64,000 bases of DNA from Citrus sinensis. Taxonomy: Eukaryota > Streptophyta > Magnoliopsida > Sapindales > Rutaceae. The notes beneath the pieces were generated by a model. The model saw only the letters and a program-made list of their open reading frames with translations, made no database searches and had not been told where the DNA came from. Every line of letters begins with the position of its first letter. Position 1 is the first letter of the stretch. Both the position numbers and the translations under genes were made by a program. Of the stretch, positions 19,239 to 26,038 are shown in pieces. The stretch covers positions 32,879,501 to 32,943,500 of the forward strand of contig NC_068558.1 of the NCBI RefSeq assembly GCF_022201045.2, read 5' to 3'.

Positions 19239-19247
19239 TTTCGAAAA
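19239..19247. repeat. MULE target-site duplication, left copy
   Basis: TTTCGAAAA is repeated at 26030-26038 directly outside the other terminal inverted repeat. Nine bases is the usual Mutator-like duplication length. Confidence 0.88.
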
Positions 19248-19316
19248 GGAAAATGATGTTTGTCCCGGGTCAAACCCCGGGTCAAACCCCGAAAATGATG
19301 TAAACGGCGTCGTTTT
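19248..19316 (+). repeat. left terminal inverted repeat of the MULE
   Basis: It matches the reverse complement of the right end: TGATGTTTG, CCCGGGTCAAACCCCG and AAACGGCGTCGTTTT in the same order. Relative to the right end it carries an extra 12-bp copy of GGGTCAAACCCC. Farther in, CT-rich TTTCTTCG repeats (19500-19540) face GAAGAAACGAAA repeats at the other end (25840-25915), so the inverted similarity extends loosely for 200-300 bp. Confidence 0.88.
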
Positions 19317-19681
19317 GATTATTATTTTTTTTCTTTTGGAAAACTCTAAAACGACGACGTTTTGTGATGATATTTTGAGAAGAATAAAATCTATCTTCCT
19401 CTTCGTTTTTGTTTCTTCGTTTCACCTGTGAAAGCAACAGAGCAACAGAGATCCCAACTTGGTCTTGTTCCGTTATCTCTTCATCTCTTCATCTCTTCAT
19501 TTCTTCGTTTCTTCGTTTCTTCGTTTCTTCGTTTCTTTACTTTCCTTCCTCTCCCGAGGTCCAGACATTCGGGATCCACGACGACCGACTGACAGCCACG
19601 ATCATCGTCAACACTGGTAGCACTGGTACTCGAAGCTTGTTCGGGAAATTGAACTCACGAAGCGGCAAAGTTACAGCCCGA

Positions 19682-19831
19682 GGTAATGCTTCGTTTTTTC
19701 CTCTTTAGGTTATGGCAAAATCGGGACGATTTGGTTGATCTAGGTTAGGCTGTCCTGGTAATGCTTCGTTTTTTCCTCTTAAGTTATGGCAAAATGGGGA
19801 CGATTTGGTTGATCTAGGTTAGGCTGCCCTG
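19682..19831 (+). repeat. 75-bp tandem duplication at the start of the leader intron
   Basis: The segment from TAATGCTTCGTTTTTTCCTC through TTGATCTAGGTTAGGCTG occurs twice, starting at 19683 and 19758, with a few differences. The duplication includes the sequence next to the predicted donor site, so two alternative donors may exist. Confidence 0.8.
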
Positions 19832-21309
19832 TTGAATTTAATTTCATTGCTCAACAAGTGCTAAATTTTGTTCCTCTTTGATTTAATGTCATTGCCCTGT
19901 TGAATTCTTGAATTTTGTTCCACTTGAAAGCTGTATTTGCTAAATTTTGTTCCTCTTTAATTTAATTAAATTTTTGAAGACCACACTTTTAATTTTTGAG
20001 TTCTAATTAGTTAGGCATCCGACCCACAATCATGGCATCAGGGTCTCTGACTTAATTTTTGTAACAACAATTACAAAACTATGAGTTAATCTCTTTGAAT
20101 TATTATTGTTGCTAAAGTGTACACTCAATGGAATAAGTTGGTCTTGGTGGGAATTTTTCTAATTACAGTGGTTAATTGTTAAGCACAAGAAGGGTTTGTG
20201 ATGGAACAAATCGATAGAAGTGGGAATTGTAAAGCGAAACAGCAAAACTTAGCCATGACAGAGAGTATTAAGTAGGGCAAATCCAAATAAGATATTCCTT
20301 ATTTGAATCAATTGCAGCTGTTCTCTTTCTGTATTTTATGTTATTTTTTGAATTAATGTAACCGAGTGATGAGGATTAATATTATTGATGGAGGGTTGTA
20401 TTTTATCTCCAGTTGTGTGTGTATAGATTGTGTGCATTTTGGCTTGGGTTCTTTGATAGCCTTTCTGGCATGTTGCTTCTAGTTTTCATAGCTACTGGGT
20501 GGTTGCTAGGTGGTATTTTGGTATTAGCTGGGTGGTATTTTCTAGCATGTTGCTTCTAGTTTGGATATTAGCTGTTGGGTTTCTGGCATTTTGGTATTAG
20601 TTGCTGGCATGTGGCTTGGGTTGTTGGTGGTTTTGGCATGTTGCTGCTAGTTTGTTTTTGGCATTTTGGTATTAGCTGCTGGCATGTGGCTTGGGTTCTG
20701 GGTGGTATTTTCTGGCATGTTGCTTCTAGTTTGGAGATTAGCTGCTGGGTTTCTGGCATTTGGGTATTAGTTGCTGGCATGTGGCTTGGGTTGTTGGTGG
20801 TATTTTTGGGCATGTTGCTGCTAGTTTGTTTTTGGCATTTTGGTATTAGCTGCTGGCATGTGGCTTGGGTTCTGGGTGGTATTTTCTGGCATGTTGCTTC
20901 TAGTTTGGAGATTAGTTGCTGGGTTTCTGGCATTTGGGTATTAGTTGCTGGCATGTGGCTTGGGTTGTTGGTGGTATTTTTGGGCATGTTGCTGCTAGTT
21001 TGTTTTTGGCATTTTGGTATTAGCTGCTGGCATGTGGCTTGGGTTGTGGGTGGTATTTTCTGGCATGTTGCTTCTAGTTTGGAGATTAGCTGCTGGGTTT
21101 CTAGCATTTTGGTATTAGTTGCTGGCATGTGGTTTGGGTTCTGGGTGGTATTTTCTGGCATGTTTCTGGGTGGTTCAGGCAGTAATCATGTTGTTCATAT
21201 GTTCTAGTTTTCTTTTCTTTTAAGTCTAACTAACTGTAATTGCAATTAAAATTTGATTTGGGTAATTTCTTTGGCATTATTAACTGTAATTGTTTCCGTT
21301 TTTGGGCAG
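19683..21309 (+). other. probable 5'-leader intron of the MULE GRF gene
   Basis: A good donor (CCCGAG|GTAATG at 19683) and acceptor (TTTTTGGGCAG| ending at 21309) frame 1.63 kb just before the ATG at 21341. The satellite and its long accidental frames then fall inside an intron, which explains why they need not code. This is inferred from splice signals only. Confidence 0.6.
20541..21170 (+). repeat. 174-bp satellite inside the MULE leader intron
   Basis: TCTGGCATGTTGCTTCTAG recurs at 20711, 20885 and 21059 with exactly 174-bp spacing. A diverged earlier copy lies at 20541. Each 174-bp unit is itself two related halves (about 80 and 94 bp) sharing GGCATGTTGCT-CTAG, GGTATTAG-TGCTGGCATGTGGCTTGGG blocks, so it is a dimeric higher-order repeat. 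As 174 is divisible by three, both strands show long open frames that simply repeat. Confidence 0.9.
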
Positions 21310-21340
21310 TTTATTCCCAAGGGACTATTAACCACAAACA

Positions 21341-21736
21341 ATGTCATCCGAGCTAAGTGAGAATCGGAGCTCATTGCAAATGTGTAATAGATGCGGTAAT
21401 CATATGGAGTTGTTAACGTCACGCACAACAAAAAATCCAAATCGGAAATTTTGGATTTGTAGAGGATGTAAGAACTTTCAATGGGCTGAAGATCGTAAAC
21501 CAACCGAAGAGAAAATAGACTTGTTAGCGGATGAAATTACGAAGTTAGGCTTAGAGATCGAGTGTTTGTCCGTTAAATTTCAATTATTGCATAAAGAACT
21601 TGAGCATATGCGAGAACGTGAAGTGCAGAGGCGATTATTGGATGACGAACTTCGAAAGAGAGAGGCACCGCGATATGATTTTATTAAAATACTGATGATT
21701 GTTGTATTATGTTTTCTCTTAAAGTATTATTTTTAA
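21341..21736 (+). CDS. GRF-type zinc-finger, coiled-coil, C-terminally membrane-anchored protein of the MULE
   Basis: The 131-residue protein begins MSSELSEN. Residues 15-48 form a GRF-type zinc finger with C15, C18, C40 and C43 and the NPNRKFWICRGC signature. GRF fingers bind single-stranded nucleic acid in proteins such as APE2 and TOP3A. Residues about 53-105 are charged heptad-like sequence (EKIDLLADEITKLGLEIECL, then KELEHMREREVQRRLL), likely a coiled coil. Residues 112-131 (IKILMIVVLCFLLKYYF) form one hydrophobic tail segment, so the protein may be tail-anchored in a membrane. Short proteins of this layout are numerous in plant genomes (named At4g04775-like, by recall). Here it sits between MULE ends, convergent with the transposase, in the position of mudrB but unlike the MURB protein family as I know it. 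Its role in transposition is unknown. Confidence 0.85.
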   Translation: MSSELSENRSSLQMCNRCGNHMELLTSRTTKNPNRKFWICRGCKNFQWAEDRKPTEEKIDLLADEITKLGLEIECLSVKFQLLHKELEHMREREVQRRLLDDELRKREAPRYDFIKILMIVVLCFLLKYYF

Positions 21737-21785
21737 GTTGTTTCAAGTTAAAGACTTGTAGACATATGTAATAGCATTTTCATGT

Positions 21786-22140
21786 TAAATTATAATTTGG
21801 CCCCAAAAATTATTCTCAAAATTATACTATGGCCCAAATCATTCTAATATTTTCGAAATTAATCCAATTCTAAACTTTTGAAAATAAACTTATTAATTCA
21901 TAGTATTATGAAATTATAATTTGGCCCCAAAAATTATTCTCAAAATGATACTATGGCCCAAATCATTCTAATATTTTCGAAATTAATCAAATTCTAAACT
22001 TTTGAAAATAAACTTATTAATTCATAGTATTATGAAATTATAATTTGGCCCCAAAATTTATTCTCAAAATTATACTATGGCCCAAATCATTCTAATATTT
22101 TTCAAATTAATCCATTTCTAGAATTTTGAAAATAGACTTA
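21786..22140. repeat. 3 x 124-bp tandem repeat between the convergent MULE genes
   Basis: The unit contains TATAATTTGGCCCCAAAA, ACTATGGCCCAAATCATTCT and AATAAACTTATTAATTCATAG. It starts at 21791, 21915 and 22039, exactly 124 bp apart, and the last copy diverges and is cut short. It lies in the short region where both genes' 3' ends meet and may hold their poly(A) signals. Confidence 0.9.
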
Positions 22141-22345
22141 AGAACTCCATAATTTAAAAAATGTCGAAATACACATACACCAAATTACATTAGTACATTA
22201 GTTGAATAGTACATAAAACATAAGCATAACCTAACTTTGATTACATGCTTGGTTCATTAGTTGAAAACTCCCCTTGATTGGCCTCCTCGAAATTTTGTTG
22301 CGGTGCATGTTGCAAGTGCACATGATGAGCTGGACCGTAATTCAT

Positions 22346-24803
22346 CTAATACTGATAGTAAGGGGGGAAAAATGCATGTTGTGGGGGTGCTTGTTGTGGT
22401 TGCTGTTGTACCAAAAAAAAAAAGTTAAACACAAATTATCAAACATATGACAATGAAAGGAAATAGCAAATAAAAAAATATTACCATAGCCATATTGCTC
22501 TCTTGTGTTGGGATTGTAGTGGCCACCTGAGAGGATAAATCATGTATCTCCGCGTCCTAGGAGTGCAGTCAACACACATTTAAAGTATATATTAAATTAA
22601 TTTAAAATGAATGTATTAAAGTATTAAATTAATCTAAAGTATATACAATTACCTCTATAGTTGTGTTTATTGAAACGTTGTTCGATTTCTGTTTTGGCCG
22701 CTTAAATTGCTTTTGCTTTCTTTGACTAGGTGGACGACCTTTACGCCGACTTACCACTGGATCTTGTATGTTACTACTGGATCCACCATCAATGGTTGTA
22801 TCGTCGTCGTCACATCGAACATTTAGAGAAACATCCTTCATAGCTTTCTCAATCCAACCCATAATGTTTTTATGACTTTCTTCATTTTTGGAAGCTACCT
22901 CAGCAACATCATAAAAAGCAGTGCACTCCTCTCTATATCGCTGATGTTCAATGCTCGAACTCCGTGCATCATAACTGACTTTGACTTTACTATAGAACCT
23001 CCGCACATCTTTCCTCCATCTTCGTAGGATATACTTTTCAGGCAGTAATTGCACACGGTTACGTGACAACACTGCGATAGCGTGTTTGCAAAGAATGCCC
23101 TTGTATTCAAACATTGAGCACACACAACGAATTTCACCTTCATCTTTTTCAAAAATGACTCTAAAAGTCTTTTCTCTACTCTTTTCATCGTTTTCAATAA
23201 CTTCATATTCTGACCCCCCACAACTGAAAACCTCACAATATATCTTATTCACCAGCTCTTGCTGAAATTCTTGAAACTTGGAAATAGTGTACACTTCTTC
23301 AACTTGCTTTTCCATGGCAAAACTGGTACGACATGGCAACCGTTGGCTAAAACTTCGTGCATCTGCTTGCCGTTCTTTCTCAATTTTACTTTCCATTGCT
23401 TTCTCATATTTCTCCACAAATTGCTTCAAAGTTGTCTTCGAGTTAACATACCCATCAAAGAAAGCATTCATACTCTCACTACGCTGAGTGGTTGACATTC
23501 CAGCCCAAAAAGTAGTTTTCACGAATGCTGGAACCCAATGATTTCTTTCCACATACAAATCATTCAACCACTGATTATTTCTAAGATCATATCTATCTAA
23601 CATGTCATGCCAAGCTTCCTCGAATTCAACAGGAGTATGTAAGTCATAAACAACAGAAAGTAATGAAACTCTAATGGCATGATATTCTGCATACCTTCCC
23701 AACTTCTCAGGCACCTTTTTTAATATATGCCACAAACACCATCGATGCCTAGTGTCTGGAAAAACAATCTGAATTGCCCTTTTCATCGCTTTATCTTGAT
23801 CTGTAATGATTCCAAGGGGAGGACACCCAGACATACACGATAGCCATGTGTCAAATAACCACGTAAATGTTTCCGTGTCCTCATGCGAAATCAACCCACA
23901 TCCTAACAAAATTGATTGACCATGATGATTAACTCCTACAAAAGGAGCAAATGGCATGTCATACTTGTTTGTTAGGTATGTGGTATCAAATGTGACAACA
24001 TCCCCAAAGTCCTTATAGGCTGCCCTACTCCTTGGATCTGCCCAAAATACATTTTTTAACCGACCCTCCTCATCTAGGTCAATACTGAAGTAAAACCCAT
24101 CATTTTCTGTTTGCATTTTCTGAAAATACCTCTGAATTGCAATAGCATCCCCTTCTCCGAGTCTTAATCGCCTCACCTTGTCAACATGATTTCTAGCATC
24201 TCTTTCTAAAAATGACACATTTTCAAAGCCACCAGCCTCGACAACAATCGACTTAAAACTTTGAGCCATTTTAATTCCAGCTTCTTCATTTATTTCAAGC
24301 AGCTTTTTAACAAAAGGACTAATGGAACGGTTGCATCGATAATACCTACTCTTGCTCGGACTCACGGCATGATTGTGTTCAAGGATCAAATTTCCAATTA
24401 CCCATTTTCCACTAACAATATCCAAACGTTCTCCAATTTTAGCATTGCATCCAATCTTTTGGTTTGGTTGAAGCCGCAAAACATTAGTGGCTTTGGCTTT
24501 TGACTTGCCGTTTCTCCCACAAGTAAACGTCACATATCTCAAACTCCCATCATCCCCTTTTCTACAAGATCTCCGCATCACTGGAAACCCCTCTTGTAGG
24601 CCATAAGTTTTATAATATTCAAACATTTCATCAGGACTATCAAAAGACATCCCAACCGTAGGCTCAACAACATTTTCCACCACCAATTCCTCATTGTTTT
24701 CTTCCAAATCAGCCCCCTGTAAATCCTGCAATTCCCCAACTTCATCAACCTCCTCCACTTGTTCGAAATTATCCATTAACTGCTGCAAATTAAAATAATT
24801 CAA
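22346..24803 (-). CDS. FAR1/FHY3-related MULE transposase, DDE triad intact
   Basis: The main exon (24803-22654, to codon 717 at 22653) encodes a FAR1-type zinc-binding DNA-binding domain (residues about 53-148, FDSPDEMFEYYKTYG to HNHAVSP). Next is a MULE DDE domain with D273 (TFDTTY), D335 (IITDQD) and E443 (QRSES), then a SWIM finger with C560, C562, C572 and H574. A basic tail (RRKGRPPSQRKQKQFKRPK) may be a nuclear signal or AT-hook. Splice sites add exon 2 (22556-22485, 24 codons) and exon 3 from 22402, both in phase 0. Exon 3 meets TAG at 22346-22348. Without it the frame would run 35 more codons to TAA at 22241, so the stop may be recent. A TTTGCAG acceptor near 24787 suggests a leader intron and the true start at residue 10 (MDNFEQ, 24776). 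The enzyme cuts element ends and inserts them elsewhere, making 9-bp duplications. Confidence 0.9.
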
Positions 24804-25490
24804 TATCTTATTAGTTATTTATCGCAAATTCATTAAATTTTAAAACAAAATTTCAAAAGCAAAATGAAACAACTCAGATGGTAATTACATCTTCTCACAT
24901 TGCTTTTTCTGTAGCCCCTGTATTAATTGCAGATGAAGAAACACAATAATATAATCAACTAGTCTTGAAATAAATTGAGCCATGTATGTAGAAACTCAAA
25001 TCGATTGATACTAATCATAATTCCTTTATTCAGAATAATAATATTAATTCTCTTGCCTTTAAAAAAACAATTCCATTATACCCAATTTAATTACATACAC
25101 AATTATAAAAAAACAGAGCCCAGGTCATTACTCTACCTCCATTCGTTCACAATTTTTTAAATTGATTTTGAATCCTACGAAGCTACAACCCAATTTCATA
25201 AACAACATCATTTCTACATTAAAAATAGATTAACATCATCATCAATTTAGCTTCAACTCTGTTTTTTTTTTCGTAGTGATGCTAACAGCTAATGTATGGA
25301 AACTGTTACAATGTTACTGAAGAAATAAATTCAAGAACATGAGAACTGAAGAAATAAATTCACAGGGAAAAATTTAAAATTAAATTAAAAAACAAAATGC
25401 TACAAAGAAGACAGTACCGAAAAAAAAACTCAAGCTTCCAAAATTCAATCTTTTAGGCACAATGTTATCTTCCTCTGCCGAAACTCAACC

Positions 25491-25842
25491 GAAACCAATC
25501 TTGCTGCTGTTGGTCTTGTTCTTCACTAAATGCAAGGGCTGTGGATCTCGTTCAGCTTAATTAGTAGATGCCGAAACTAATCATGCCGAAACCAATCTTG
25601 CTCGCAGCCGAAACTCAACCGAAACTCAGCTGCTGTTGGTCTTGTTCTTCACTAAATGCAAGGGCTGTAGATCTCGTTCAGCTTAAGATGAAGAGGATGG
25701 AGCAAGGGCTGTGCAAGGGCTTTGGTCTTGTTCTTCACTAAATGCAAGGGCTGTGGATCTCGTTCAGCTGCTGTTGCAAGGGCTGTGGATCTCGTTCAGC
25801 TGCTGTTGCAAGGGCTGTGGATCTCGTTCAGCTTAAGATGAA
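25491..25842. repeat. right-end minisatellite of the MULE
   Basis: GCAAGGGCTGTGGATCTCGT followed by TCAGC occurs about five times between 25531 and 25835, with linkers TGCTGTT or GGTCTTGTTCTTCACTAAAT. A larger block from CCGAAACTCAACCGAAAC to GTTCAGCTT is also duplicated (about 25478-25560 and 25600-25682). It lies upstream of the transposase and could affect its promoter. Confidence 0.85.
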
Positions 25843-25973
25843 GAAACGAAAAAGAAATGAAGAAAGGATGGAAGAAACGAAAGAAATGAAGAAAGCCTGT
25901 AAGAAACGAAAAAGAAAAAAATAAAGAAAACGACGCAAATAAGAAGCCGCGAAGTAAAAAAAAATTTAAAAAC

Positions 25974-26029
25974 AAAACGACGCCGTTTTATATTTTTCGG
26001 GGTTTGACCCGGGGCAAACATCAGCACTC
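25974..26029 (-). repeat. right terminal inverted repeat of the MULE
   Basis: On the minus strand it begins GAGTGCTGATGTTTGCCCCG and continues through GGTCAAACCCCG to AAACGGCGTCGTTTT, as in the left end but with one GGGTCAAACCCC unit instead of two. Confidence 0.88.
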
Positions 26030-26038
26030 TTTCGAAAA
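26030..26038. repeat. MULE target-site duplication, right copy
   Basis: TTTCGAAAA is identical to 19239-19247. Confidence 0.88.

Follow-up and report, generated by a model that had tools for sequence, protein, structure and literature searches.

A short GRF gene very probably serves as a conserved accessory gene of Mutator-like elements in Citrus sinensis

A Mutator-like element (MULE) of 6782 bp occupies positions 19248-26029 of a 64,000-nucleotide stretch of the Citrus sinensis genome (contig NC_068558.1), which as a whole is called the window below. Two convergent genes lie between its matching ends, one for a FAR1-type transposase and a short one (gene 2) whose product carries a GRF-type zinc ribbon. 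The locus raises the question of whether gene 2 belongs to the element or was picked up by chance, and of what its protein might do. The second genes of MULEs are poorly understood; the one described here recurs in dozens of elements, including the CitMule family, which has been linked to a chromosomal deletion found in a sport of clementine, and is under selection. We conclude that gene 2 is very probably a conserved, selected accessory gene of these MULEs. The features of the element are as follows.

19239..19247: left target site duplication, 9 bp, TTTCGAAAA
19248..19332, plus strand: left terminal inverted repeat region, starting with GGAAAATGATGTTTG, imperfect and with an internal repeat
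21341..21736, plus strand: gene 2, 131 aa, with GRF-type zinc ribbon, long helix and C-terminal hydrophobic tail (residues 113-127)
22346..22402, minus strand: predicted last exon of the transposase gene (gene model only)
22485..22556, minus strand: predicted second exon of the transposase gene (gene model only)
22653..24776, minus strand: exon 1 of the transposase gene, with FAR1, MULE and SWIM domains and the DDE residues kept; the unspliced open reading frame (ORF) extends to 22629
25958..26029, minus strand: right terminal inverted repeat region
26030..26038: right target site duplication, 9 bp, TTTCGAAAA, an exact match to the left copy

The sequence-only reading of the window had described matching terminal inverted repeats, a perfect 9-bp duplication and a second gene converging on the transposase, and all three are real. 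The repeats are made up of two inverted block pairs, 19254-19279/25998-26023 (26 nt, 96% identity) and 19302-19332/25958-25988 (31 nt, 87% identity); the outermost bases are imperfect, with bases 2-6 differing between the two ends. The duplication TTTCGAAAA is exact on both sides and lies within the 8-11 bp range of the MULE superfamily, of which the terminal inverted repeats and the MULE-type DDE transposase are the other marks. Gene 2 is a plus-strand ORF of 131 aa facing the minus-strand transposase. The window locus is a complete two-gene Mutator-like DNA transposon of the citrus genome. No other FAR1/GRF element was detected elsewhere in the window by tblastn.

The transposase ORF spans 22629-24803 on the minus strand, and a likely start codon, the ATG at 24776, gives 715 aa to the stop. 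According to the gene model, the gene probably consists of three exons with GT-AG at both introns and encodes 750 aa. Pfam matches to FAR1 (52.5 bits), MULE (PF10551, 126 bits) and SWIM (37.4 bits) all exceeded the cut-off, and the order of the domains, FAR1 at the N-terminus and SWIM at the C-terminus, is that of FAR1/Jittery-type transposases. D273, D335 and E443 of the 724-aa ORF are located in FDTTY, TDQD and RSESMN, respectively, so that the catalytic triad stands at the positions first reported for it.

The GRF finger and the C-terminal hydrophobic segment proposed earlier for the protein of gene 2 were also found, the former narrowly. The protein passed the Pfam GRF cut-off (PF06839) by a small amount, 26.1 against 25.9 bits, and has the four cysteines of the ribbon. 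C15, C18, C40 and C43 were invariant among nine aligned GRF proteins, as were the NPNR and FW residues. The 15 residues of highest hydropathy are residues 113-127, which end 4 residues before the C-terminus and were equalled in 2 of 2000 shuffled sequences; by hydropathy only, this is the placement of a tail anchor. In all 20 open accessory proteins checked, the corresponding segment ended 0-9 residues from the C-terminus. AlphaFold2 predicted three strands followed by a single helix at residues 56-130 (mean pLDDT 83, pTM 0.36).

Relatives of the window GRF protein are numerous in the genome, and include an identical copy on contig C9 and a 98%-identical copy on C2. A genome search with the window protein gave 170 matches, a part of which was listed, and 107 loci after merging. 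As many as 37 of the 40 GRF loci whose downstream flank was read had a convergent MULE transposase or a part of one. This count comprises 28 of 30 loci, the window locus among them, at which the C-terminus of the transposase lies downstream, convergent and within 1.5 kb, together with L042, seven of eight further loci, and L074. The near copies L039-L041, which were read at length, have an open GRF frame and a broken transposase frame; among these and the window copy, both frames are open in the window copy alone. In L059 both the transposase frame (722 aa) and the GRF gene are open, with 60% and 64% identity, respectively, to those of the window. L058 has terminal repeats of its own with the 9-bp duplication TTTTAGTTA; the duplications of L057 and L059 are homopolymers, hence weak.

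Transposase-first searches were run to check for the bias that might come from choosing loci by their GRF gene. The two sets of counts share loci and are not independent. All linkage counts were made in one genome and only the best candidates were scored (62 of 1014 for the FAR1 query and 150 of 789 for the non-FAR1 query), so the totals are lower bounds and not those of a random sample. For the FAR1-type transposase, 67 rows were merged by hand to 61 loci, and a listed convergent GRF gene was located within 10 kb at 37 of them, with none on the same strand and none upstream. Random placement gave a mean of 0.10 and a maximum of 3 such loci in 500 runs. Among the 15 stop-free loci, 10 had the convergent GRF gene.

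The remaining 24 FAR1-type loci fall into three groups. At 12 of them, a convergent gene matched a different protein, one with an RNase H1 N-terminal domain (RNase H1-N) and a hydrophobic tail. Three resemble interrupted or eroded GRF genes: at C1:1268228 a retrotransposon adjoins the last 11 GRF residues (E 0.096), C5:30074575 is apparently the split element of L064 with its GRF gene about 10.4 kb off, and C5:38680405 retains a 27-residue GRF remnant (E 0.0055). Nine had no listed convergent second gene and are weighed below. Had other copies of this MULE consistently lacked the GRF gene, the window pairing would have been a chance capture; they do not consistently lack it.

The search for the replacement gene gave 50 rows, merged by hand to 41. 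Five of these genes were read, all of them open:

L080:101-472, RNase H1-N/tail gene
L081:154-525, RNase H1-N/tail gene
L082:116-487, RNase H1-N/tail gene
L083:40-471, RNase H1-N/tail gene
L084:102-521, RNase H1-N/tail gene

They encode 124-144 aa with a C-terminal hydrophobic tail, and four of the five, L082 being the exception, converge on a listed FAR1-type transposase and stand where the GRF gene would otherwise be. Three of the five were scanned with Pfam, and in these the RNase H1 N-terminal (Cauli_VI) domain was matched at 54-65 bits against a cut-off of 21. A tree built from 13 transposase cores placed the RNase H1-N subfamily (two sequences) with the GRF-bearing L059 and L067 at a support of 100, and the two latter were set apart with 72; when the tree was rooted on L095 (ingroup support 74), the subfamily was nested among GRF-bearing elements. 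On this nesting, the GRF gene most likely gave way to an unlike head on a similar tail, with site and orientation unchanged.

The pairing extends to a second clade. The transposase on which the GRF/tail gene of L061 converges matched MULE and SWIM and, in the three pieces scanned, showed no FAR1 match. It was 27% identical to that of the window over 92 residues and would be MURA-like. The element measures 5385 bp, with 139-bp repeats at 89% and the perfect duplication TAAATTAAT. For the non-FAR1 transposase, 150 rows were merged by hand to 146 loci; a second GRF search gave 144 rows, reduced to 108 by leaving out second pieces and the GRF rows that the FAR1-type count had already covered. A listed convergent GRF gene was present at 72 of the 146 loci, with none upstream and two on the same strand, against a mean of 0.275 and a maximum of 2 in 200 runs of random placement. 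At 60% identity or more, 46 of 50 loci were paired.

Two further arrangements were seen around GRF genes. L074:1652-5217 probably arose by deletion from an element of the second MULE clade: its inverted repeats measure 133 bp and are 98.5% alike, its GRF gene is open, and of the transposase it has C-terminal parts only; no target duplication was found for it. At L060, L070 and L071 (C8:12.94 Mb), the GRF gene differs hardly at all from L074's; nothing but FAR1-type fragments lies nearby, and the gene is flanked by inverted repeats about 350 bases long and 79% alike.

One divergent group of GRF proteins, in which eight copies are identical over 132 aa, pointed to L042. There, two TTGTTGAAA repeats 6927 bp apart enclose a transposase ORF of 711 aa and, convergent with it, a GRF-like gene of 132 aa (L042:6603-7001). 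The locus agrees with CitMule_1 as given in the parts of PMC4334395 at hand: both lie on chromosome 3 near 6.79 Mb, the lengths are 6927 and 6926 bp, the 9-bp duplication is TTGTTGAAA, the quoted 18-base motif is at L042:2289, and a 5-exon model gives exactly 795 aa. Because chromosome, length, duplication, motif and gene model agree, L042 is CitMule_1. In the same parts of that paper, CitMule is placed near Jittery and is transcribed, and one copy lies inverted at a 2-Mb deletion carried by the clementine sport Arrufatina. One gene is described there; its 795 aa are fully explained by the transposase alone, the convergent GRF gene is not mentioned in those parts, and the term GRF is absent from the main text. 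The transposases of L042 and the window are 60% identical and the GRF proteins 42%, with the same layout. Copies were identified in PMC4334395, in the portion available, by more than 99% identity to CitMule_1, so the window element is a relative from another subfamily and not a member. Among seven other CitMule-type copies whose ends were compared, two had perfect duplications of their own (TTTAATCAA and TAAGTTCTT) and one a near match; for four, the far end was beyond the stretch compared. Four CitMule-type transposases (C3:6791039, C3:46305520, C8:13627805 and C8:28579005) are stop-free and of equal score, each with an identical GRF gene, and probably represent a recent burst.

The ratio of nonsynonymous to synonymous substitution (dN/dS) was estimated pairwise by maximum likelihood, with a likelihood-ratio test (LRT) against dN/dS=1. 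In the more diverged pairs it was well below 1 for both genes of the element: 0.205 (LRT 27.9) for the GRF gene between the window and L059, 0.29 (LRT 12.9) between the window and L058, and 0.125-0.21 for the transposase over six pairs. GRF genes of the second clade gave 0.17-0.28 in four pairs with a synonymous distance (dS) of about 0.5 and 0.11-0.42 over all 15 pairs, for example 0.19 (LRT 26.2) for L061/L074 and 0.17 (LRT 24.2) for L085/L092. Values at dS >2 are saturated, and those of close GRF pairs range from 0.06 to 1.27. The two genes have also diverged in parallel. GRF and transposase distances were correlated (r=0.75) over 33 loci, and none of 5000 permutations reached this value; three loci fetched twice had been left out beforehand, and 33 of the 37 remaining were usable. 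The repeated linkage, the parallel divergence and the dN/dS values indicate that gene 2 was kept by selection on the element. Chance capture of the GRF gene is rejected by the GRF-first and transposase-first counts and by dN/dS.

Several observations weigh against gene 2 being a regular and selected partner with the protein structure described. L013, L016 and L060, three of the 40 GRF loci read, lack a convergent transposase; L013/L068 and L016/L069 are GRF copies of the window family with no transposase within 5 kb downstream. A 96%-identical convergent transposase piece (C3:36228120) lies 19.8 kb from L013, and was perhaps split away from its GRF gene by an insertion. Nine of the 61 FAR1-type loci have no listed convergent second gene. 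L076 and L078, whose transposases are stop-free in the matched part, showed no second gene in the 4.5 kb read downstream of each; C3:36228120 is the piece linked to L013; at C3:32189082 an RNase H1-N match lies on the same strand 6.3 kb off; the rest were judged from the lists. Some of the nine could be single-gene MULEs or host FAR1-related genes. In the non-FAR1 clade, pairing fell to 6 of 13 loci at 50-60% identity, 20 of 69 at 40-50% and 0 of 14 below 40%; the drop with distance may be real, or the GRF genes may be too divergent for the query. Neutrality (dN/dS=1) was not rejected for several close GRF pairs (window/L014 0.44, window/L015 0.40, L014/L015 1.27), nor in any of ten RNase H1-N pairs (0.34-1.74, largest LRT 3.76). 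As for the protein, zinc-ribbon fold matches were weak (best E 0.14) and the best PDB sequence match was to RPB9 (E 0.06), in searches in which the short ribbon alone could match. Several GRF relatives were below the Pfam cut-off (CitMule 13.8 bits, L061 23.8) or had no match (L085, L091 and L092), and the tail hydropathy of the CitMule protein was equalled in 21 of 2000 shuffles.

The stop-free FAR1-type transposase frame of L078 and L095 (C3:39802585-39804669), 52% identical, belongs either to a one-gene MULE or to a host FAR1-related gene.

What gene 2 does can be approached from its two heads. GRF ribbons bind single strands, which in the case of the repair enzymes are of DNA; the ligands of RNase H1 N-terminal domains are RNA:DNA hybrids and double-stranded RNA. 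Nucleic-acid binding would thus be the common denominator of both heads, and the property conserved across subfamilies seems to be a nucleic-acid binder on a membrane tail. Zinc binding, nucleic-acid binding and membrane insertion are all putative activities, deduced from the protein sequence. The transposase, by analogy with its family, would cut the element and reinsert it at the terminal repeats. In the protein of gene 2, a zinc ribbon expected to bind nucleic acid would sit on a helical stalk with a C-terminal tail anchor. A C-terminal tail normally directs a protein to the endoplasmic reticulum (ER), and a tail anchor points to the ER or the nuclear envelope. The tail would insert into one of these membranes, with the head toward the cytosol or nucleoplasm, where it would bind element RNA or RNA:DNA hybrids; expression would then be shielded from small-RNA silencing, or the transcripts helped into use. 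We tentatively favour this mechanism, in which gene 2 eases silencing or aids expression of the element, over the alternatives below.

It is possible, if somewhat doubtful, that gene 2 is a strict transposition helper at the nuclear envelope, its ribbon holding single-stranded or hybrid DNA ends or intermediates and promoting reinsertion as mudrB may do. The single-stranded DNA binding of the repair enzymes would suit such a role, as would the convergent layout shared with MuDR, whose mudrB is apparently required for integration according to the sections of PMC6446971 consulted. Against it, the RNase H1-N domain that replaces the GRF ribbon in one subfamily fits RNA targets better, and the tail normally means the ER.

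Gene 2 might also counter silencing by another route, for example by titrating a silencing protein at the membrane, with nucleic-acid binding secondary. VANC of the Arabidopsis VANDAL elements is an anti-silencing protein, and an arms race could be reflected in an architecture kept despite marked change in sequence, such as the 42% identity between the window and CitMule GRF proteins. We regard this as unlikely, as dN/dS is low and not raised in the more diverged pairs, and the four cysteines, NPNR and FW are invariant in the nine aligned rows.

It is very improbable that gene 2 is host cargo which an ancestral element took up and which has since been carried along with no function for the element. 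MULEs often capture host genes (PMC6446971, in the sections consulted) and some copies here have one of the two genes only; purifying selection, the fixed position and orientation, the occurrence in two MULE clades and an unlike replacement domain with the same architecture all speak against it. The same evidence bears on the proposal that short GRF proteins are MULE cargo annotated as host genes. That they are MULE genes fits this genome; the word cargo is too weak for a gene that purifying selection maintains and that a second MULE clade also carries. The idea that the GRF genes are host genes beside which MULEs merely insert can be dismissed, since they lie inside terminal repeats and target duplications at unrelated sites, and listed GRF genes within 10 kb are convergent at 37 of 37 FAR1-type and 72 of 74 non-FAR1 loci.

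The favoured mechanism of RNA or hybrid binding on a membrane tail can be carried further, as a speculative proposal. At least two deep plant MULE clades might share a general accessory gene, so far taken for a host gene or overlooked, whose product has a GRF ribbon or a swapped RNase H1-N head on a membrane tail. Acting at the ER or the nuclear envelope, this product would keep element RNA or hybrids safe from silencing. In function the gene would correspond to mudrB and to the barley gene ORFR, and it might be distantly related to them.

Known systems share parts of this arrangement. MuDR makes 9-bp duplications, and differs from the window element in that its transposase is not known to be FAR1-type. 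The MuDR-like layout noticed at the outset holds: in the passages of PMC9168764 used here, MuDR has two genes in opposite directions between terminal repeats, as the window element has. Barley Abermu, in the same passages, has an antisense second gene, ORFR, which is divergent between species and given no function there; Abermu differs in being closest to MuDR, and ORFR shows no similarity between distant hosts. The term GRF does not occur in PMC9168764. Jittery and other FAR1-type MULEs resemble the window element in their N-terminal FAR1 and C-terminal SWIM domains (PMC6446971, in part). Jittery has a single ORF in that part, and Jittery and Os3378 one gene each in the passages of PMC9168764, whereas most of the listed loci here have two genes.

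The C4 ribbon of gene 2 is found in APE2, TOP3A, NEIL3 and ZCCHC4, which are larger enzymes; here it is attached to a short helix and a hydrophobic tail.

MULEs that carry a second, oppositely directed gene are therefore already known (MuDR, and Abermu with ORFR, in the passages of PMC9168764 used). In a search of open-licence papers, most of them judged by their listing, no published link between a GRF protein and a MULE transposase was found. As far as that search shows, it is new that FAR1-type MULEs regularly have a GRF/tail gene as partner and that CitMule and a second clade have one too, and so is the probable head swap. A nucleic-acid binder with a membrane tail is unexpected in a nuclear DNA transposon and suggests that part of transposition, or of the evasion of silencing, may take place at a membrane. 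Should other plants show the same pairing, many of the short "GRF" genes annotated in them would be accounted for, and transposon genes could be masked more readily. Because this genome contains natural copies in which neither frame is broken, the function of gene 2 can be put directly to the test.

Two repetitive stretches accompany gene 2 in the window. A tandem array of about 124 bp at 21780-22100, between the two genes, aligns to the copies L040 and L041 in several registers. A minisatellite-like stretch at 20450-21180 is located upstream of the GRF start codon, perhaps inside a 5' intron, and the long ORFs on both of its strands appear to be by-products.

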